Shown: positions 15,666 to 62,391 of the stretch, in pieces | How positions within the stretch are numbered: position 1 is the stretch's first letter | Layout: every line of letters starts with the position of its first letter | Assembly: GCA_025934775.1 (NCBI GenBank) | Contig: JAICWO010000011.1 | Coordinates: 62,001 to 126,000, forward strand | Reading direction: 5' to 3' | DNA length: 64,000 nucleotides | DNA from: Gemmatimonadaceae bacterium | GTDB taxonomy: Bacteria; Gemmatimonadota; Gemmatimonadetes; Gemmatimonadales; Gemmatimonadaceae | Made by a program: the position numbers and the translations under genes | Notes under the pieces: generated by a model | Database searches by the model: none | What the model was told of the DNA's origin: nothing | The model's input: the letters and a program-made list of their open reading frames with translations, nothing else

Positions 15666-16343
15666 CTACGGCGTCGTGACGCGGCTCACGGGTACAGCGA
15701 CCAAATCGAACACGCGCCCGAATGCCGCCCCAACTCGGTCCGCGACCTCGTCGAAGCTCGGCGCGCGCGGCCCCAGCTCCCGCTGTACTGATGTCATCGT
15801 CACCGATTGGATCCCGCACGGGACCATGAGGTCGAAATATGTCAGATCCGTCGTCACGTTCAGCGCGAAGCCGTGCCAAGTGACCCAATCGCGCGCGTGC
15901 ACGCCGATTGACGCGATCTTGCTCCCCTGCGTCCAGACCCCGGTGTAGCCGGGATTTCGCTCACATGGAATGTCGATCTCGCCCATCGCGACGATCAGCG
16001 CCTCCTCCACCTGGCGCAGATACCAGTGGAGGTCGCGCTTGTGCCGTTTGAGATCGATGATCGGGTAGCCGACGAGCTGTCCCGGCCCATGGAACGTCAC
16101 GTCGCCGCCGCGCTCGACCTCGAACAGCTCGACGCCTCGCGCGGCGAGCAACGCTGGCGATGCGAGCAGGTGCTGCTCCTTCGCCGAGCGGCCGAGGGTG
16201 ACGACCGGCGGGTGCTCGAGCAGGATCAGAAGATCCTCGGGGATCTCACCCGTGATTCGCCGGCGGGCCGCGTCCCGCTGAAGCTCGAGCGCCTGAGCGT
16301 ACGGAACCACACCCAGGCGCTCGATCCAGAGCTCAGGGGACAT
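15666..16343 (-). CDS. lipB: Octanoyl-[ACP]:protein N-octanoyltransferase
   Basis: Moves octanoate from acyl carrier protein to the lipoyl domains of E2 and GcvH; LipA then inserts sulphur. The family signatures are FHGPGQLVGYPI (residues 85-95), the catalytic lysine in GSKIASIGV (K142), the WHGFALNV block and the catalytic cysteine in MVPCGI (C176). It has 225 aa from ATG 16343. A longer frame to 16448 only reads through a palindrome. It is the second gene after lpdA on the minus strand, and the 114-base gap between them is completely occupied by palindrome B. Confidence 0.95.
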   Translation of the reverse strand: MSPELWIERLGVVPYAQALELQRDAARRRITGEIPEDLLILLEHPPVVTLGRSAKEQHLLASPALLAARGVELFEVERGGDVTFHGPGQLVGYPIIDLKRHKRDLHWYLRQVEEALIVAMGEIDIPCERNPGYTGVWTQGSKIASIGVHARDWVTWHGFALNVTTDLTYFDLMVPCGIQSVTMTSVQRELGPRAPSFDEVADRVGAAFGRVFDLVAVPVSRVTTP

Positions 16344-16347
16344 GGTC

Positions 16348-16456
16348 GGTGGTCCGTGGACCGTGGACCGTCGACCGGCGCCCTTCTCCGCGATCTGCGC
16401 GCCGTCGTTATTCGCGCCGTTCACCACGGACCACGCACCACGGTCCACGGACCGCC
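16348..16456. repeat. Intergenic imperfect palindrome B (GGTCCGTGGACC words)
   Basis: GGTGGTCCGTGGACCG at 16348-16363 matches the reverse complement of 16441-16456 at 15 of 16 positions; the next 17 bases match at 11. Each word is itself nearly self-complementary. The structure starts four bases from the lipB start codon and ends one base from the lpdA stop codon, filling the whole gap. The loop region is 16381-16423. Confidence 0.85.
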
Positions 16457-18822: not shown

Positions 18823-20145
18823 TTAGAAAACCAGCATCAACGGATTCTCGATCAGACGCCGCAGCGTCTGGAGGAACGCGGCGCCGACCGCGCCGTCCAC
18901 CGCCCGATGGTCGCAGCTCATCGTGACGCGCACGCGCTTCTCCACCGCTGTGCCGCCGGCGGCGGGCACGACCACGTCCTGTGCCGTGCCGATCGCGAGG
19001 ATCGCGACTTCCGGCGGATTGATGATCGCCGTGAACTGGTCGATGCCGAACATGCCGAGGTTCGAGATCGAGAACGTCGAGCCGGTGTATTCCTCCGGCT
19101 TGAGCTTTCGCTCGCGCGCGCGCTTCGCGAGCTCCTTGGCCTCGCGCGAGATCTCGCGCATGCGCTTCTGGTCGGCGTCGAAGATCACGGGGACGATCAA
19201 TCCATCCGGCGTGGCCACGGCCATGCCGAGGTGCACGCGATTGTAGTATCGGATCTTGTCGCCGAGCCAGTGGGCGTTCACCTCGGGGTGCTGCGACAGC
19301 GCGGTCGCGACGGCTTTCATCAGCACGTCGTTCACCGAGACCTTGAACTCGTCGCCCATCTCCGCCATCGCGGCGCGCATTTCGGTCACGCGCGTCAGAT
19401 CGTACTCGGCCGTGAGATAGAACGTGGGGATCGGACCGATCGATTCGGCGAGGCGCTTGGCGATGGTCTTCCGGATCTGCGTGAGCGCGACGTCCTCGTA
19501 GTCCGCGCCCGTGCGCGCGACCCGCACCGACGGCTGCGCCGCCGAAGGCGCCGCGGCGGCAGATTCGACGTCGCGTTTGATGATCCGGCCGCCCGGTCCC
19601 GAGCCGCGCACCTGCGATAGATCGAGGCCGCGATCCGACGCCATGCGGCGGGCGAGCGGGGAAGAGCGCAGCTGACCGCCATTTCCGCTCGCCGGCGACG
19701 GCTGACCCTGCGTGGGAATGGCTGGCGGACCGGCCGGAGTCTTCTGCTCGGGCGGCGCCGACGCTTCGCCCTGTGATTGCGCGGGTCGCTGCGGGACGGA
19801 CGTCGCGCCGGCGCTCTCCTGCGTCTTGGCGACGACTTCAGCGGGCGGCTTCGCGCCGCCGGCAGCCGCGCCGCCGGCTTCGCTCACGAGCGCGTCGATG
19901 TTCTCGTCCGGGGCAGCGATGACGCCGACCAGCGAGCCGACCGGACGCGACTCATTCTCGCCGACGAGTCGTTTGCGCAGCACGCCGTCGCCGCGCGCGA
20001 CGAGCTCCATGATCGCCTTGTCGGTCTCGACCTCGGCGAGCGGCTCGCCGCTCTTCACGGCGTCGCCTTCGTTCTTGAGCCATTTGACGAGGCGCCCCTC
20101 CTCCATCGTGGGCGAGAGCGCCTCCATGAAGATCTTCGTTGCCAT
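18823..20145 (-). CDS. aceF: Pyruvate dehydrogenase E2, dihydrolipoyl acetyltransferase
   Basis: The core of the pyruvate dehydrogenase complex. A lipoyl domain occupies residues 1-75 with the lipoylated lysine in ETDKAIMEL (K43), then an Ala/Pro linker. The peripheral subunit-binding domain is SPLARRMASDRGLDLSQV...GGRIIKRDVE, near 155-195, and the catalytic acetyltransferase domain ends in SCDHRAVDGAVGA with the active-site His. At 440 aa it has one lipoyl domain. It is the third gene of lipA-pdhA-pdhB-aceF. Its ATG has no purine-rich ribosome site: the bases just upstream are the pyrimidine-rich arm of palindrome C. Confidence 0.94.
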   Translation of the reverse strand: MATKIFMEALSPTMEEGRLVKWLKNEGDAVKSGEPLAEVETDKAIMELVARGDGVLRKRLVGENESRPVGSLVGVIAAPDENIDALVSEAGGAAAGGAKPPAEVVAKTQESAGATSVPQRPAQSQGEASAPPEQKTPAGPPAIPTQGQPSPASGNGGQLRSSPLARRMASDRGLDLSQVRGSGPGGRIIKRDVESAAAAPSAAQPSVRVARTGADYEDVALTQIRKTIAKRLAESIGPIPTFYLTAEYDLTRVTEMRAAMAEMGDEFKVSVNDVLMKAVATALSQHPEVNAHWLGDKIRYYNRVHLGMAVATPDGLIVPVIFDADQKRMREISREAKELAKRARERKLKPEEYTGSTFSISNLGMFGIDQFTAIINPPEVAILAIGTAQDVVVPAAGGTAVEKRVRVTMSCDHRAVDGAVGAAFLQTLRRLIENPLMLVF

Positions 20146-20151
20146 AAGAGC

Positions 20152-20236
20152 TGAGAGTAGAGAGTGGAGATTGGAGAGGGGAGATTGAAGCGCGAGAGTG
20201 TGCCGCTACTCTCTACTCTCCATTCTCCACTCTCTG
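20152..20236. repeat. Intergenic imperfect palindrome C (GGAGAGT words)
   Basis: The segment from 20159, AGAGAGTGGAGATTGGAGAG, matches the reverse complement of the right arm ending 20235 at 24 of 28 positions. The loop is about 20 bases. It fills the whole gap between the aceF start codon (20145) and the pdhB stop codon (20238). Confidence 0.85.
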
Positions 20237-20237
20237 C

Positions 20238-21218
20238 CTACTCCAGGTACATGACTTTGCGTACGGCCGCGATCGTTTTCGCGGCATCGGGTTTGGCGGC
20301 GCGTTCGAGATTCTTGGCGTACGGCATCGGGACGTCGGCCTGGTGCACCCGGTACACGGGCGCGTCGAGGAGATCGAAGCACTCGCGCTGCACGTAGTCG
20401 ACCACTTGTGCGCCGATGCCGGCGAGCTCCCAGCCTTCCTCGAGCACGACGCATCGGTTGGTCTTCTCGACCGACGCCTTGATCGCGTCCACGTCCATCG
20501 GGCGTACGGTGCGCAGGTCGACGACGTCGACGTGAATGCCGTCCTTGGCGAGCTGGTCGGCGACCTGCATCGCGACGAGCGCCATCTTACCGTTCGTGAC
20601 GATCGTGCAGTCGTCGCCTTCGCGCTTGAGATCGGCCTTGCCGATCGGGATCACGTACTCTTCCTCGGGCACTTCGCCCTTGGTGTTATACAGCATCTCG
20701 CCCTCGAGGAAGCACACCGGATTGTCGTCGCGGATGGCGGCCTTGAGCAGCCCCTTGGCATCGTACGGCGTACCCGGCGTGACGACCTTGAGGCCGGGGA
20801 TGTGCGCGAGCCACGACTCGAATGACTGGGAGTGCTGCGCCGAGAGCTGCAGCGCCGCGCCGTTGGGGCCGCGGAAGACGATCGGAACGTTGAACTGGCC
20901 GCCTGACATGTACAACAGCTTGGCGGCCGAGTTGAGCACCTGGTCGAGCGCGAGGACGGCGAAGTTCCACGTCATGAATTCGATGATCGGCCGCAAGCCG
21001 ACCATCGCGGCCCCGACGCCGACGCCGGCGAACCCGAGCTCGGTGATCGGCGTGTCGACGACGCGCATCTCGCCGAATTCCTGGAGCAGCCCTTTAGAAA
21101 CCTTGTATGCGCCCTGGTACACCGCGACTTCCTCGCCCATGAGGAATACGCGGTCGTCGCGCTGCATCTCTTCGCGCAGCGCCTGGTTGAGGGCGTCTCT
21201 GTACGTGATTACCGGCAT
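20238..21218 (-). CDS. pdhB: Pyruvate dehydrogenase E1 component beta subunit
   Basis: The beta chain of heterotetrameric E1, which decarboxylates pyruvate with thiamine diphosphate. It starts MPVITYRDALNQALREEM at ATG 21218, followed by FLMGEEVAVYQGAYKVSKGL, DTPITELGFAGVGVGAAM and VFRGPNGAA, and ends in the transketolase C-terminal domain (DVVDLRTVRPMD, VVLEEGWELAGIGAQV). 326 aa is normal. Only eight bases separate it from the pdhA stop. The adjacent downstream gap to aceF is entirely palindrome C. Confidence 0.95.
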   Translation of the reverse strand: MPVITYRDALNQALREEMQRDDRVFLMGEEVAVYQGAYKVSKGLLQEFGEMRVVDTPITELGFAGVGVGAAMVGLRPIIEFMTWNFAVLALDQVLNSAAKLLYMSGGQFNVPIVFRGPNGAALQLSAQHSQSFESWLAHIPGLKVVTPGTPYDAKGLLKAAIRDDNPVCFLEGEMLYNTKGEVPEEEYVIPIGKADLKREGDDCTIVTNGKMALVAMQVADQLAKDGIHVDVVDLRTVRPMDVDAIKASVEKTNRCVVLEEGWELAGIGAQVVDYVQRECFDLLDAPVYRVHQADVPMPYAKNLERAAKPDAAKTIAAVRKVMYLE

Positions 21219-21226
21219 TGTCGTGA

Positions 21227-22261
21227 TCAGTCGGCCGCGACGGCTTCCGCCGCCGCATCGCTCGTCGTGTCGACGAGCACGTTCTCGAAGAGGGCCTCGA
21301 GCGGAGGCTCGGGGCTGGCGTCGGCGAAATCCCAGGCGTCCTGCACGGTGGCTTTGATCGCGTCGTCCAGCTTGTGCAGGTCGTCTTCGGTGAGCTCTCC
21401 CTGCTCCTGCATGTGCATGCGGAGGAGCATGATCGGATCGCGCTTCATGTACTCGTCGAGCTCCGCCTTGGAGCGGTACGTGCCGCTCACCGCATCGGAC
21501 ATCGAGTGGCCCATGAAGCGGTACGTGCGGATCTCGAGCAGCGTCGGCAGCGACTCCGTCCGCGCGCGGTCGACGCACTCCTGCATCGCCGCGCGGACCG
21601 CGAAGACGTCCTGTCCGTCGCACACGGCGCGCGGAATGTTGTACGACGCGCCGCGCTCGTAGATGTCGTGGATGGCCGACGCCCGCTCGAGCGCCGTCCC
21701 CATGCCATATCTGTTATTCTCGATCACATATACGACGGGAAGCTTCCAGAGCCCCGCCATGTTCAGCGCCTCGTGGAACGCGCCGGTGTTCACGACCGAC
21801 TCGCCCATGAAGCAGATGCACACCTGGTCGCCGCCGCGATACTTGATCGCGAAGCCGACGCCGGTGCCGAGCGGCACGTGCGCCCCGACGATGCCGTGGC
21901 CGCCGAGGAAATTCAGGCTCTTGTCGAACATGTGCATCGAGCCGCCCTTGCCGTGCGCGCAGCCGTCGACGCGGCCGAACAGCTCGGCCATCACCGCCCG
22001 CGGATTCATCCCGCGCGCGAGCGCCTGCCCGTGGTCGCGATAGGTGGTGATGATGTAGTCGTCGGGGCGGAGCACCGAGAGCGATCCCGTGCTCACCGCT
22101 TCCTGGCCGATGTACAAATGACAGAAGCCGCCGATCTTGCCGAGCGCGTAGGCTTCGGCGCACCGCTCCTCGAACCGGCGCTGCAGCAGCATCGAATGCA
22201 GCAGCTCGCGATTTAGTTCAGCGTCGGAGCGAATCGTTTGTTCGGGTTTCTTTTTCGCCAT
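21227..22261 (-). CDS. pdhA: Pyruvate dehydrogenase E1 component alpha subunit
   Basis: Binds thiamine diphosphate and pairs with PdhB. The YRDHGQALARGM block, HGKGGSMHMFD and GGHGIVGAHVPLGTG are standard. The thiamine/magnesium motif, normally GDG...N, reads G153-E154-S155 followed by VVNTGAFHEALNMA, so the usual acidic ligand Asp is a Glu. RYGMGTALERASA and the phosphorylation-loop-like GHSMSDAVSGTYR follow. 344 aa from ATG 22261. The upstream gap to lipA is filled by palindrome D, so its start codon is preceded by pyrimidine-rich sequence rather than a ribosome site. Confidence 0.94.
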   Translation of the reverse strand: MAKKKPEQTIRSDAELNRELLHSMLLQRRFEERCAEAYALGKIGGFCHLYIGQEAVSTGSLSVLRPDDYIITTYRDHGQALARGMNPRAVMAELFGRVDGCAHGKGGSMHMFDKSLNFLGGHGIVGAHVPLGTGVGFAIKYRGGDQVCICFMGESVVNTGAFHEALNMAGLWKLPVVYVIENNRYGMGTALERASAIHDIYERGASYNIPRAVCDGQDVFAVRAAMQECVDRARTESLPTLLEIRTYRFMGHSMSDAVSGTYRSKAELDEYMKRDPIMLLRMHMQEQGELTEDDLHKLDDAIKATVQDAWDFADASPEPPLEALFENVLVDTTSDAAAEAVAAD

Positions 22262-22273
22262 AGAAAAGAGATT

Positions 22274-22342
22274 GGAGAGTGGAGAGCGGATCGTGGAGAG
22301 GACATGGTGTATCGACGCTCCACGCTCCTCGCTCTACTCTCT
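22274..22342. repeat. Intergenic imperfect palindrome D (GGAGAGT words)
   Basis: 22274-22300 (GGAGAGTGGAGAGCGGATCG...) matches the reverse complement of 22316-22342 at 21 of 27 positions. It sits in the 86-base gap between the pdhA start (22261) and the lipA stop (22348), five or six bases from the lipA stop. Confidence 0.8.
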
Positions 22343-22347
22343 GTGGT

Positions 22348-24892: not shown

Positions 24893-24909
24893 GTATGGGT
24901 CGGGGCTCC

Positions 24910-25009
24910 GGTCGCTGTGGTTCGGGGTCGTGAGTAGCGGGTTGTGTGTTGTGCGTTCAAACACCCAGAAGCCGGTACTCGTAACCCACGACAAGCCACC
25001 AAAGCGACC
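24910..25009. repeat. Intergenic imperfect palindrome H (GGTCGCT/GTCGTG words)
   Basis: 24910-24941 (GGTCGCTGTGGTTCGGGGTC...) matches the reverse complement of 24978-25009 at 22 of 32 ungapped positions. It lies between two convergent genes, beyond the terminator of the plus-strand one and 36 bases from the stop of the minus-strand one. It is weaker than the other copies. Confidence 0.55.
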
Positions 25010-25044
25010 AGCGCGCGGAAGCCACTCGCGGTCAGCCAGTGCCG

Positions 25045-33429: not shown

Positions 33430-33545
33430 GGAGGAGAGTGGAGAGTTGAGAGTGGAGGGTGGAGGTCGACAACAGCCAACGGCATCAGGCTGGGTCGAGA
33501 GCTCGATCCGCCAGCCTCCATCCGATCGCTTCTAGCTGTCCACTC
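33430..33545. repeat. Intergenic palindrome E, partly decayed (GGAGAGT words)
   Basis: A purine-rich arm at 33430-33466 (GGAGGAGAGTGGAGAGTTGA...) faces a pyrimidine-rich arm at 33508-33545. The best pairing is TGGAGGGTGGAGG (33453-33465) with 33508-33520, 11 of 13. It fills the gap from the POT start codon to the dppF stop codon. Confidence 0.6.
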
Positions 33546-43133: not shown

Positions 43134-43387
43134 CCGCTGGAGGCTGGGGGCCGGGCGCTGACGGCAAGCTGACAGCACCCCGCTCGGCTGTTCGCTATCG
43201 GCGACAGCTATCGGTCGAATTCGGAGCGAAACGTCGAATGGGCACGCCGAAGACAGTTCGGTGTGCCCATTCTACGCTTCGTTCCACTTCCCTCTGATAG
43301 CGGACGCCGATAGCCGATAGCCGAGCTGGGAACTGCCGCTGTCGGCTCGCTCGTCAGCGCGCAGCTTCCAGCCCCCAGCCCCAGCGG
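43134..43387. repeat. 254-base imperfect palindrome F between convergent gcvP and gcvH
   Basis: Nested matching arms: CCGCTGG (43134) with CCAGCGG (43381-43387), GGCTGGGGGC (43142-43151) with 43371-43380, GCGCTGACG (43155-43163) with 43352-43360, CGCTATCGGCG (43193-43203) with CGCCGATAG (43305-43313), and a tip GGGCACGCCGAA (43240-43251) with 43257-43268, 11 of 12, around a five-base loop. The right arm ends one base from the gcvH stop codon. It should form a very long hairpin in either transcript and act as a bidirectional terminator. Confidence 0.88.
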
Positions 43388-57943: not shown

Positions 57944-58807
57944 TCAGGGACAGCGCCGCACGATCGCGAGCGCGTCGCCAACGGTGCGCTCGCCGCCCTT
58001 GTCCGACGGATGATTCGCGATCCGCAGCGCGCCAGCCGAATCGGGATCCGCGACGACCATCGTCGTCGAGCCGCCGCCGTCGAGGTTGATCGCGTCCCGC
58101 GCGCCGAGGGCGAGCATCAGCTCGGCGGTTTCGCGAAGTGTCATACCAGCATTCTGATACTCGCGCCCATCGATCACCGCGAGAATCAGGCGTCTGCCGT
58201 CGCGCGAGATGCCCGCCGCGGTGCGCGGGTTGCGCGCGCGGAACGACGCCTGGCCAAACGTGTCCACCTCCGCGACGATCGCGCTGTCGCGCACGAGGAC
58301 TGGGCGGCCCCCGACGGCCTGGAGCGGACGAAACGGCCGCAGCGCGTTGTCGTCGAGCGCGAAGAAGCCGATGTGCGCCGCGCCGGTCGAGTCGAATGCG
58401 AGTACCGGCTGGCGAATCGGCGGCGTCCGCATGCTGCCGTCGACGACGAGCAGGTTGGTCGGCGAGCCGGTCTTGAGATTGAAGAAGTCTCCATTCACCC
58501 CGCCGAGCACCTTCTCGTGCTGCGCGAGCGCGGCGAGCATAGCCGTCGTCTTGAGCCGACGAAGCGTGCCGTCGGCGCTCGCCGCCGCTTCGGCGGCATT
58601 GCAGCGGTCGAGGTCGATAGAGAGGACGTTGATCCTCCACGGCCCGCGAGAGGAGCTGATGACGCGGTGTGTGACACCGTCGGCGATCAACTGCGCGCGG
58701 GTGCTGTCCACCGGGAACGGCATCGCGCCCACGGACGGGGCGGTGTGCACCGGCGGCCGCGCGCAAACGGCGAGCAGAATGGAGGCGGCGATCAGGCGAC
58801 GTGACAT
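57944..58807 (-). CDS. Phosphodiester glycosidase family protein (NAGPA-like), exported
   Basis: 287 aa. An N-terminal signal peptide (RRLIAASILLAVCA) may be a lipoprotein signal with its cysteine. Family blocks are KVLGGVNGDFFNLKTGSPTNLLV, ARNPRTAAGISRDGRRLILAV, LGARDAINLDGGGSTTMV and the GGERTVGDALAIV end. Relatives remove a capping sugar-phosphate or act on cell wall phosphodiesters. Start ATG 58807. It is divergent from nurA. Confidence 0.87.
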   Translation of the reverse strand: MSRRLIAASILLAVCARPPVHTAPSVGAMPFPVDSTRAQLIADGVTHRVISSSRGPWRINVLSIDLDRCNAAEAAASADGTLRRLKTTAMLAALAQHEKVLGGVNGDFFNLKTGSPTNLLVVDGSMRTPPIRQPVLAFDSTGAAHIGFFALDDNALRPFRPLQAVGGRPVLVRDSAIVAEVDTFGQASFRARNPRTAAGISRDGRRLILAVIDGREYQNAGMTLRETAELMLALGARDAINLDGGGSTTMVVADPDSAGALRIANHPSDKGGERTVGDALAIVRRCP

Positions 58808-58938
58808 GCGTTGCGTTTGGTGGAAAGTCGTGCCGAAGGCAATGGCGCGGCTCGCGGGCCGATCGCGCTCGACACGGACAAAGTGTGGTCGCTACGCTAA
58901 TTTTCCGCTACGGTGAATTCCCTTCGAGTCCGATCGCG

Positions 58939-59940
58939 ATGACTGCCGCGACGTCTGTGCAACCCGTCGTTTCGCCGCCGGCTCCGCGTTCCGTGGCGCG
59001 GATTCTCGCCGAGTTGTTTCCCGACTCGACCGCGGTGGAAGGGGAGCGCGCGCTCGAGTTATCGACGGCGGAGCCGACGCGCCAAATCAGCGCGACGATC
59101 ATCGAGGGACACGAGCTGCGTGCGCGCCGCGTGTTCGGGGACCCGGTCGTCGGGTTTGCCGCATTTCTCGACGGCACGCAGCACAGCATCGTGGAGATGT
59201 ACCGCGCAGGCGGTGTACCGATCGTCCGCGGGCGCGTGGGCGCCGTGATTCGTGATCGCCGCAACCAGCGTCTGTTCACCTGGCGTCATCTCGTCGAAGA
59301 CGCGCTGTACGTGCCGCGGGCTCGGATGCGGGAAGCGGATTGGGATCGTCTCGCGGCGAGCGGCATCACGCTCCGCGACACGACCGACGGCGATGTCGAC
59401 GCGTCCGAGCATCCGCTCGCGCTCCGTGACTCGGCGATCCACCGCGTGCAGAAGGATCGCGAGCGGATCGAGCAGCAACTCGCGGAGGACTGGTGCGGCC
59501 GCGAGAATCGGCCATTGTTGATCGACGGCGGCATCAGCGGCGCGGAGCAGGTCGCGCGCTCGGGATGCGCCGTCGGCGTGATCAAGAGTCATCGCACGCT
59601 CTACGCGCGCGGCGACGCGCTGAGCGTCGTGCTCGCGCTCGGCCGCGCGGAGCGCTCGAGCGTGTTCGTCGTGACCTCGCCGAAGCGCACGAGCGTGGCG
59701 AGCTGGTACCTCCGCATTCGCGACGGACGCGGCCGCGAGCCCATGTGGGGACTGGCGCGGGTCGAGGTCGCCGCGCCGACCGCGGACCGCGAGCAGGACA
59801 TCGGCACGCGCGCCGACGAAGTCTCGCGCTGGATTCTCGCCGAAGCATCGCCGGTCTCGCTGCCGGACGGCCGGTGGGACAAGATGGTGTACGGGGTGAG
59901 GGATTGTGAGGAGTTCTTGAGGGCGATAATGGGAACGTGA
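58939..59940 (+). CDS. nurA: NurA-domain nuclease
   Basis: 333 aa. NurA blocks are VVGFAAFLDGTQHSIVEMY (first DG acidic motif), RPLLIDGGISG (second), and GCAVGVIKSHRTLYA, the NurA lysine loop; the end DGRWDKMVYGVRDCEEFLR follows. In archaea NurA is a 5'-3' nuclease bound to the HerA hexamer. Here herA is the next plus-strand gene, separated only by the palindrome-bounded S23 element. The start ATG 58939 fits the family; the longer frame from 58801 crosses the divergent promoter. Confidence 0.78.
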   Translation: MTAATSVQPVVSPPAPRSVARILAELFPDSTAVEGERALELSTAEPTRQISATIIEGHELRARRVFGDPVVGFAAFLDGTQHSIVEMYRAGGVPIVRGRVGAVIRDRRNQRLFTWRHLVEDALYVPRARMREADWDRLAASGITLRDTTDGDVDASEHPLALRDSAIHRVQKDRERIEQQLAEDWCGRENRPLLIDGGISGAEQVARSGCAVGVIKSHRTLYARGDALSVVLALGRAERSSVFVVTSPKRTSVASWYLRIRDGRGREPMWGLARVEVAAPTADREQDIGTRADEVSRWILAEASPVSLPDGRWDKMVYGVRDCEEFLRAIMGT

Positions 59941-60450
59941 GAGTCGATGATGGAGAGTGGAGTGTGGAGATGAGGCGCTCGTCAATCGTGCTGTGCGCGA
60001 ACGGAGCGGATGAGCGCGGAGAGTCGGGCCGCCAGTTCGGCGACCAGTGTTCGAGCCTCATCCAACTCGGCGCCGCGGTGTATCCCGAGGACGCGAATGA
60101 GCACCAAGTGTGTGTCTAGTTCCATAAGGGATCCGCGTGCCACCGACAAAAAACGTGCAAACTCCCGTCTTCGCTGTCTGCCGTGACCTTCCGCAATGTT
60201 TGCCGCGACGGACGTTGCTGCTCTGCAGATCTGTGAACGCAGGCCGAATCGTTCGGAGGCGGGCAACGATTCCGCGAGACGGTACACGACTCTGGCGAGT
60301 TCGATCGCACGACGCCATACAGTGAGGCGCGTATAGTTTGGGCGCGGCACGCCTCCAAATTGAACTGGATCGCACTTGGATAATCATCATTCGATTTCAA
60401 GCATGACCGCCACACCTCTCCACTCTCCACTCTCGACGCTCGACTCTCGC
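59937..60450. mobile_element. Palindrome-bounded S23 four-helix-bundle element (copy G)
   Basis: The left arm 59937-59975 and the reverse complement of the right arm 60412-60450 agree at about 29 of 39 ungapped positions; both read G.GAGAGTCGA, then GAGAGTGGAG.GTGGAGA. Between the arms lies one complete gene, S23, on the minus strand, ending seven bases from the left arm. The left arm begins at the nurA stop codon and the right arm covers the first codons of herA. No target-site duplication or transposase is seen, so mobility is inferred from the repeat family, not shown. Confidence 0.6.
59982..60350 (-). CDS. Four-helix-bundle protein of the S23/23S-rRNA IVS family
   Basis: 122 aa. The YTRLTVWRRAIELARVVYRL start, the core ERFGLRSQICRAATSVAANIAEG (residues 33-55) and FLSVARGSLMELDTHLVL (67-84) are the family hallmarks. 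Relatives are coded inside inserts in 23S rRNA genes, and the Avd accessory protein of diversity-generating retroelements shares the fold; activity is undefined. This copy is not inside an rRNA gene. The start GTG 60350 is the only permitted one before an upstream TGA, but the GGAGG just before it is only one base away, an odd spacing. Both neighbours run opposite to it. Confidence 0.93.
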   Translation of the reverse strand: MPRPNYTRLTVWRRAIELARVVYRLAESLPASERFGLRSQICRAATSVAANIAEGHGRQRRREFARFLSVARGSLMELDTHLVLIRVLGIHRGAELDEARTLVAELAARLSALIRSVRAQHD

Positions 60451-62391
60451 CCTCTCGGCCGCATCGTCGCCACCGAGCGCAAGCCGAACACGCCCCACGA
60501 ATTCCATTTCTGGACCGCGCTCGATTCGCCGGTCGGCATCGGAACGGTCGTCCGCGTGGAAGGTGCGCAGGCGGTCAACGGGCAGATTCCGCGAGTCTAC
60601 GGAATCGTTGTTGAGGGTTTCGGCTATACAGATCTCCAAACACCGCTCCACGACCTGCTCGGCCACGACGGCACGCCGGCGAGCGCGTCGTTGGCGCCGA
60701 CGCAGCGCACCGAGATCCGGCTCTACAGCGCCGCCGTGCAGCGGCAGCTTCCCGAGGAGCCGCTCCAGCCCGTGCCGATGGGCCAGGTCTATCTCGCCGA
60801 CGACAACGACGTCGCCGTCGCCCTGCGCATGGACGGGTATCTGAAGGAAGGCTCACGCACCGGCATTCCCGTCGGCGTGTACCGCGCCGGCGGCACCGAT
60901 GCGGCGATCTACCTCGACGCCGACTTCCTCCTCGGGCCCGAAGCGGCGCATCTGAACATCACCGGTGTATCCGGGCTCGCGACCAAGACGAGCGCGATCG
61001 AGTGGATCATGGGGTCCATCTTCGCGCACTTCCCGCCGCAGAAGGGCTCCGTGGCCGCGGTGTGCTTCAACGTCAAAGGCCCCGACCTGTGTTTCATCGA
61101 CCAGCCGGGCGACATCGATGATGCGGATCGTCTGCTCTACGAGAAGTGCGGCGTCCCCGCGACGCCGTTCGAGCACGTCCAGTATTTCGCGCCGTACAAG
61201 TCCGACGGCTTCTCGCTCAACACGCTTCGATCGAACGACGCGCTGCTGCACAACGTCTCCGCGCTCACGTGGGGGCTTCGCGAGGTGCTGCAGTACGCCG
61301 AGGTGCTGCTGAACAAGGATGACGTGGACGCCAAGGCGGACGCGCTCATCGACTTCATTCGCGAGCGCGTGGTCGATCGCGATTTCAGCGATGCCATCCT
61401 CGGGAGCAAGCACTACACGGTGAAGTCGTTCGCTGATCTCGAGGAGTGGTTCCGCGATCTGTTGTCGGCGCTCGAGGGGAAGAACAACGAGGGCTGGCGT
61501 ACGCACCACATCGCGACGATTCGCAAGGTGCGCAACCGGCTCTCGAACATCTCCACGCGCTGCGCGGGGCTCGTGACCGACGCGGGCACCGTGAGCGACC
61601 TGCCGTTCGGGAGCTTTCAGGATCGCACGGTGTATGTCATCGACGTCGCCTCGCTCGAGGAGGACGCGCAGGATTTGATCTTCGCGCGCGTCGTCACGAA
61701 GCTTCGCGAGCACCTCGAAAAGCGCGACCTCGGCGTGAACCACGTGATCGTGTTCGTCGACGAGCTGAACAAGTATGCGCCCAGCGATGGCCGGGAAACC
61801 TACGTTCGCAAAATGCTGCTCGACCTCGCCGAACGCGGCCGATACCTCGGGCTCGTGCTGTTCAGCGCACAGCAATTTCGATCGCAGGTCCATCGGCGCG
61901 TCGTCGGCAACTCGGGGACGGCGCTCTACGGCCGCATGGACGCCGACGAGCTCGCGACGCCGGGCTACGCGGTGCTGAGTCCGGCGGTGAAGACGAAGCT
62001 CGCGACGCTCGAGAAAGGCCAGCTCATGGTGCGGCACCCGCACTTCACGCAGCCCATCTTCGTCCGCTTCCCGCGTCCGGCGATCATGCGCGGACGCGAT
62101 GGCGCGGAGCGGTATCCGCAGGCGGCGGACGTGGAGCTCGAGGCCGCGGTGCTCCGCGGCCTGCGCACGCTCGATCCCTCCATCACCCTCGGCTGGGTGC
62201 AGGACGCGATCGGCCTCCGGGACGACGACGAAGTGCTTCGCGCGCGCAATGCCGCGCTTCGCGAACGCCCCGCCGACGTGAAGCGGTTCTTTCTCGCGCA
62301 GCTCAAGCCGGTCATCGCGCCGCAGACCGCCACGCGCGCCGCGGCCACCGCGCTCCGGCCCGCGCCGGCCGACGATCCGTACGGATTTTGA
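60403..62391 (+). CDS. herA: HerA-like DNA translocase/helicase ATPase
   Basis: 662 aa. An N-terminal HAS-barrel-like region (GRIVATERKPNTPHEFHFW) precedes the ATPase. The P-loop reads ITGVSGLATKTSAIEW at ~186-200, retaining Lys-Thr-Ser but with an unusual spacing, as in bacterial COG0433 proteins. Walker B is VIVFVDELNKYAP (~447). RGRYLGLVLFSAQQFRSQV is the sensor region. ATG 60403 is the sensible start; codons 4-16 are palindrome arm, and no start exists between them and the conserved domain. Partner nurA lies upstream; sbcD follows 866 bases later. Confidence 0.85.
   Translation: MTATPLHSPLSTLDSRPLGRIVATERKPNTPHEFHFWTALDSPVGIGTVVRVEGAQAVNGQIPRVYGIVVEGFGYTDLQTPLHDLLGHDGTPASASLAPTQRTEIRLYSAAVQRQLPEEPLQPVPMGQVYLADDNDVAVALRMDGYLKEGSRTGIPVGVYRAGGTDAAIYLDADFLLGPEAAHLNITGVSGLATKTSAIEWIMGSIFAHFPPQKGSVAAVCFNVKGPDLCFIDQPGDIDDADRLLYEKCGVPATPFEHVQYFAPYKSDGFSLNTLRSNDALLHNVSALTWGLREVLQYAEVLLNKDDVDAKADALIDFIRERVVDRDFSDAILGSKHYTVKSFADLEEWFRDLLSALEGKNNEGWRTHHIATIRKVRNRLSNISTRCAGLVTDAGTVSDLPFGSFQDRTVYVIDVASLEEDAQDLIFARVVTKLREHLEKRDLGVNHVIVFVDELNKYAPSDGRETYVRKMLLDLAERGRYLGLVLFSAQQFRSQVHRRVVGNSGTALYGRMDADELATPGYAVLSPAVKTKLATLEKGQLMVRHPHFTQPIFVRFPRPAIMRGRDGAERYPQAADVELEAAVLRGLRTLDPSITLGWVQDAIGLRDDDEVLRARNAALRERPADVKRFFLAQLKPVIAPQTATRAAATALRPAPADDPYGF

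Follow-up and report, generated by a model that had tools for sequence, protein, structure and literature searches.

The S23 gene, a small bacterial gene of unknown function that encodes a four-helix-bundle protein, sits inside a palindrome built of 7-base repeats, both in the Gemmatimonadaceae genome studied here and across many bacterial phyla. It comes and goes from genomes together with that palindrome, and many gene-free copies of the same repeat occur elsewhere in the same genome, which suggests an unrecognised type of mobile repeat element. We first describe the S23 locus in the window, by which we mean the whole stretch of 64,000 nucleotides that was analysed; positions refer to this window unless stated otherwise. 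We then compare the flanks of S23 genes across genomes, study the presence and absence of the element at orthologous sites and conclude with the protein and the possible mechanisms of spread.

The S23 locus and the structure of its arms

The S23 gene occupies positions 59982-60350 on the minus strand and encodes 122 aa with a GTG start. It matches the S23/four-helix-bundle family PF05635 with 109.8 bits (cut-off 33.8) and TIGR02436 with 112.7 (cut-off 24). The gene lies between a left arm at 59939-59970 and a right arm at 60417-60448, which are complementary at 27 of 32 bases; the longer 39-base version of the arms given in the preliminary description yields 29-30 of 39. The left arm begins at the stop codon of the upstream nurA-like gene. 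The right arm lies inside the predicted coding start of the herA-like gene if the ATG at 60403 is its start, and appears to encode part of the N-terminus of the herA-like protein. In the relative G001 a different heptad does the same, so the palindrome rewrites the start of the gene. The names of the two neighbours (58801-62391) are only weakly supported: for HerA we found only NF040937 at E 8e-4 and for NurA there was no family hit in Pfam or NCBIfam. Dinucleotide shuffles of the flanks reach the observed arm score at p about 0.001, so the single locus is only moderately convincing by itself and the case rests on the comparative data, which make it secure.

Both arms consist of tandem heptads, GGAGAGT on the left and ACTCTCC on the right. 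The pattern ACTCTCCACTCTC (2 mismatches or fewer) occurs 19 times in the window compared to 1.3 expected. Across the whole genome (hereafter G000) CTCTCCACTCTCCACTCTC (2 mismatches or fewer) occurs 270 times, compared to only 3 times for the reversed control. The preliminary description had reported gene-free copies of the same arm type at 20152, 22274 and 33430. We confirmed that the first two are true palindromes (20145-20238, filling an intercistronic gap, and 22261-22343), whereas the third is a one-armed tract with no proper partner (33434-33460), perhaps a decayed or half element.

G000 contains seven S23 genes, six of which are enclosed by inverted repeats, each of different sequence: GGACCGT (locus L001), GGAGAGT (the locus in the window), GAGACGC (L003), a long arm without clean heptads (L004), TTGCGGG (L005) and a 233-nt arm that is 94% identical (L007). 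Locus L006 has none. To establish how general this arrangement is, we used a strict local alignment of the left flank against the reverse complement of the right flank. In six genomes of the genus 21 of 29 S23 genes scored 18 or more, compared to 0 of 114 shifted controls and 2 of 122 cross-locus pairs. In the order we observed 22 of 28 compared to 0 of 106 shifted controls. For 79 named loci from many phyla (Bacteroidota, Pseudomonadota, Planctomycetota, Chloroflexota, Cyanobacteria, Acidobacteria, Clostridia and candidate phyla) the numbers were 44 compared to 1 of 290. The shifted controls are mostly coding DNA, which is a limit, though the cross-locus controls use real S23 flanks. These controls argue against chance inverted repeats arising from GC-rich composition. 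Besides L006, S23 genes without inverted arms were found next to conjugation-type genes on Trichormus plasmids (loci L274 and L275), a possible arm-less subclass.

The only prominent period in the arms was 7, which was found in 40% of named arms compared to 4% of controls, with its harmonic at 14. A minority of arms in Gemmatimonadota use 8- or 13-mers: for loci L021 and L026 and palindromes of the relative G004 we noted periods of 8 (GGGGCGTC, GGTAGGCC) or 13-14. Both flanks were heptadic in 68 of 109 loci. When the heptads were aligned by rotation they shared a G in 98% and a preceding A in 80% of the cases, while the other five positions were variable (score 518 compared to 419 ± 11 for shuffled heptads). 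We also observed a clear polarity, as the left arm is richer in G than C in 63 loci and the reverse is true in 2. The median inner distance is about 435 nt and the median arm length about 34 nt.

Heptad families and gene-free palindromes

Within a locus the left and right heptads agree at 5.9 of 7 positions, compared to 3.8 between loci. S23 protein identity correlates with heptad similarity (Mantel r = 0.23, p = 0.0005; 0.18 after correction for GC), mostly above 60% identity. We then searched for copies of particular heptads in genomes with and without the corresponding S23. Tripled AGGCAGT gave 89 hits in the Mesorhizobium genome whose S23 has AGGCAGT arms, 9 in Rhizobium tropici (AGGCAAT), 15 in a cyanobacterium and none in the other 11 of the 14 genomes searched. 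AGGGACT gave 136 and 37 hits in the two genomes whose S23 carries it; smaller counts of 5 to 11 occurred in three others, one of which (G001) also has an AGGGACT S23. In the genus, the arm sequences found 25 places in own-genome samples and none in five relatives. Whole-genome searches with L001 and L005 agree, with only three weak hits of the L001 arm in relatives.

Gene-free palindromes of the L001, L004, L005 and L007 families, as well as many of the GGAGAGT family, were identified in G000. In the window these include a palindrome of the GGACCGT family at 16337-16453, whose coding form is locus L001, a palindrome of the TTGCGGG family at 24908-25013, whose coding form is locus L005, and a 244-nt palindrome at 43136-43379 sharing arms with locus L004. 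The relative of L007 is a 588-nt gene-free palindrome (L059:395-982) which shares about 240 nt of arm at 84%, so these are dispersed copies and not simple slippage products. We also checked for other genes inside wide palindromes. In 464 kb of G000 the only widely spaced pair with an S23 inside was the one in the window; the other wide pairs were weak matches apparently within coding DNA, or two stronger pairs without S23. Two inverted repeat pairs without S23 were noted: a 95-nt pair (GGTCATCCCGAGCGA...) with a 276-nt interior (L045:14293-14752), which belongs to another repeat family, and a 63-nt pair, 90% identical, with a 226-nt interior (L058:15340-15689).

In 388 kb from 13 S23-negative relatives we detected 3 heptad tracts, all in one genome (0.77 per 100 kb), compared to 154 in 1.24 Mb from 20 S23-positive genomes (12.5 per 100 kb; Mann-Whitney p = 0.0035). 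The samples are small, uneven and not phylogenetically corrected, and some S23-positive genomes showed no heptad tract in 20-kb samples.

Presence and absence at orthologous sites

The preliminary description had proposed that the hairpins are gene-free forms of an element whose coding form carries S23. The data support this reading: S23 genes elsewhere mostly do have inverted flanks, and close relatives mostly lack both S23 and arms at the same sites. Between nurA and herA, S23 with arms is present in G000 and G001. There is no S23 in the relatives G002, G003, G004 and G005, where the genes abut or are close, except that G003 keeps a gap of about 190 nt with what looks like a degenerate palindrome. 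The G000 sites L001 and L005 have no S23 in the relatives examined, although the G002 stretch at L001 was not aligned in detail.

Gene-free sites behave likewise, but the sequences differ. At 20145-20238 G000 has GGAGAGT, whereas G003 has AGGGTAT, G004 GGGGCGTC and G005 GGTGGACG, and G001 is nearly empty (14 nt). At the site orthologous to 22261-22343 there are AGAGGGG-type arms in G001 and AGGGTAT in G003. The G003 and G004 sequences at the first site match arms of their own S23 loci L025 and L021. So the same gap is reused, or the palindrome is rewritten, with the resident heptad, and this could mean turnover in place rather than fresh insertion.

The cleanest evidence comes from complete cyanobacterial plasmids. 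In Calothrix brevissima NIES-22 a 513-nt unit of AGGGTGT arms plus S23 lies exactly between an integrase stop codon and the next ATG. Tolypothrix, Aulosira, Nostoc carneum and Nodularia plasmids have 3 nt at this position, the first three at about 90% DNA identity; the plasmids with the 513-nt unit insert were at about 90-95% identity. At another plasmid site Nostoc C052 and N. edaphicum hold AGGGAAC arms plus S23 (486 and 479 nt), Nostoc C057 has 42 nt and no arms, and Nostoc ATCC 53789 has 250 nt with AGGGAA-type inverted arms and no gene. Thus one site shows the full, the gene-free and the empty state, in line with the reading in the preliminary description. No target-site duplication is visible at the plasmid junctions. 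A pair of Calothrix plasmids could not be taken as evidence of a fresh jump, since the two share a larger homologous block.

One possible explanation is that heptad palindromes arise and spread by host processes such as replication slippage, template switching or recombination, and that S23 genes are separate hitch-hikers inserting into pre-existing hairpins, as IVSs sit in 23S rRNA hairpins. In favour of this, the gene-free loops differ from copy to copy and share only the arms, orthologous sites carry palindromes of different heptads, and a gene-free palindrome lies at the plasmid site where relatives have S23. However, the empty plasmid and chromosomal sites lack the arms as well as S23, heptads are nearly absent from the sampled S23-negative relatives and match the resident S23, and slippage does not give the roughly 240 nt shared between the L007 arms and L059:395-982. 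We therefore consider this explanation unlikely. It is also doubtful that S23 is a heptad-binding regulator whose operator-like or mRNA-processing sites are kept between genes of operons because they regulate those genes, with apparent mobility being site turnover under selection. Purifying selection on S23, the location of the palindromes in intercistronic gaps and the co-variation of S23 and heptad would fit such a role. Nevertheless, and without expression data, hundreds of dispersed copies, sites that are empty in close relatives and different heptads at orthologous sites do not look like a conserved regulon.

The S23 protein and possible mechanisms of spread

Pairs of S23 genes show dN/dS of about 0.04 to 0.19, which indicates that the protein is maintained, though these values are rough (NG86 with high dS). 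AlphaFold2 predicts a four-helix bundle with a mean pLDDT of 96. With Foldseek we found 2gsc (TM 0.92) and 2rld, both with five chains per entry, followed by Avd (4dwl_C, TM 0.80, probability 1.00) and ribonucleoprotein structures of diversity-generating retroelements (DGRs; 8ub7). The title of the 2gsc paper, quoted in PMC10053308, describes five four-helix bundles, and PMC10053308 also notes PF05635-Avd homology. Unlike in DGRs, there is no reverse transcriptase (RT) in the element and template/variable repeats were not seen. An RT acting in trans is unlikely here as no PF00078 match was found in G000, which is 99% complete.

The closest parallel in behaviour are the REP/REPIN sequences with their RAYT transposases (PMC3116915), a comparison already drawn in the preliminary description. 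In both cases inverted-repeat hairpins are dispersed in species-specific families, the same repeat flanks a low-copy gene and there is one distinct gene per family. The analogy holds for how the system works but not for membership, as the gene is S23 and not a Y1 (HUH) transposase, the arms are tandem heptads of variable length, and no PF01797 match was detected in G000, which also makes a RAYT acting in trans unlikely. An insertion sequence would carry its own transposase and show a target-site duplication, yet only S23 lies between the arms.

S23 ORFs between inverted repeats are known from the 23S rRNA intervening sequences (IVSs) of Coxiella and Leptospira, which have long been suspected of mobility (PMC4990558). 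The Coxiella IVS has 428 nt, compared to 513 nt for the Calothrix unit, carries the S23 ORF between 28-bp inverted repeats and is excised by RNase III. The elements described here lie in protein-coding intergenic regions, have heptad arms and have gene-free copies, and a motif scan of the S23 loci found only isolated chance-level hits and no credible 23S rRNA around them. The IVSs and the Avd-like fold in DGR ribonucleoproteins leave it possible that the element acts mainly as RNA, with the transcript hairpin cut by RNase III and S23 as an RNA-level passenger. This seems improbable to us, since the arm mismatches show no G-U bias on the sense strand (99 GU-type compared to 98 AC-type), which gives no support for selection on an RNA hairpin, and no RT was found in G000 for an RNA-to-DNA step.

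We consider it more likely than not that these loci represent an S23-heptad element, consisting of two inverted arms of tandem 7-base repeats (usually a few units, each ending in AG/GG when read inward) with one S23 gene between them. On this reading it is inserted or lost as a unit, typically in the gap between two genes, and the shorter gene-free palindromes with the same heptad are its non-autonomous copies, as REPINs are to RAYT genes. As a mechanism we propose that S23 recognises its own heptad hairpin and lets host enzymes copy that hairpin, as DNA or RNA, into new intercistronic or hairpin-bearing sites, while S23 itself stays at low copy with one distinct gene per heptad family. That S23 binds the heptads, that it drives their spread and that host enzymes are used is inferred and rests on no direct evidence of binding or movement. 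S23 has no known catalytic activity, and no near-identical S23 copies were seen at unrelated sites within one genome, so the coding form itself does not look active now.

Heptamer repeats in intergenic DNA have been described without an associated gene, among them the TAACTGA repeats (PMC4679880) and GGGAATC of Xanthomonas (PMC4692102), the latter with about 70 convergent inverted pairs per genome. PMC4679880 states that no mechanism of transfer is evident and neither paper mentions S23. X. campestris also has an S23 of known structure (XCC0516, 2gsc). We found no paper linking S23 to heptad repeats in the open-access literature, a search that mostly does not cover subscription journals. It is about as likely as not that S23 proteins are a pan-bacterial class of non-transposase factors that spread and maintain species-specific heptad palindromes, that the 23S rRNA IVSs are one niche of this element, and that the long-unexplained heptamer repeats of cyanobacteria (probably including those termed STRR), Beggiatoaceae and Xanthomonas are its gene-free products.

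The element joins three unexplained things: the function of the widespread S23 family, the mobility of rRNA intervening sequences and the origin of heptamer repeats in bacterial genomes. Each S23 names its own predicted binding sequence, which makes the proposal directly testable. If S23 drives the repeats, it would be a way of spreading DNA repeats that depends on a small helical-bundle protein with no known enzyme activity, in place of a transposase or reverse transcriptase.
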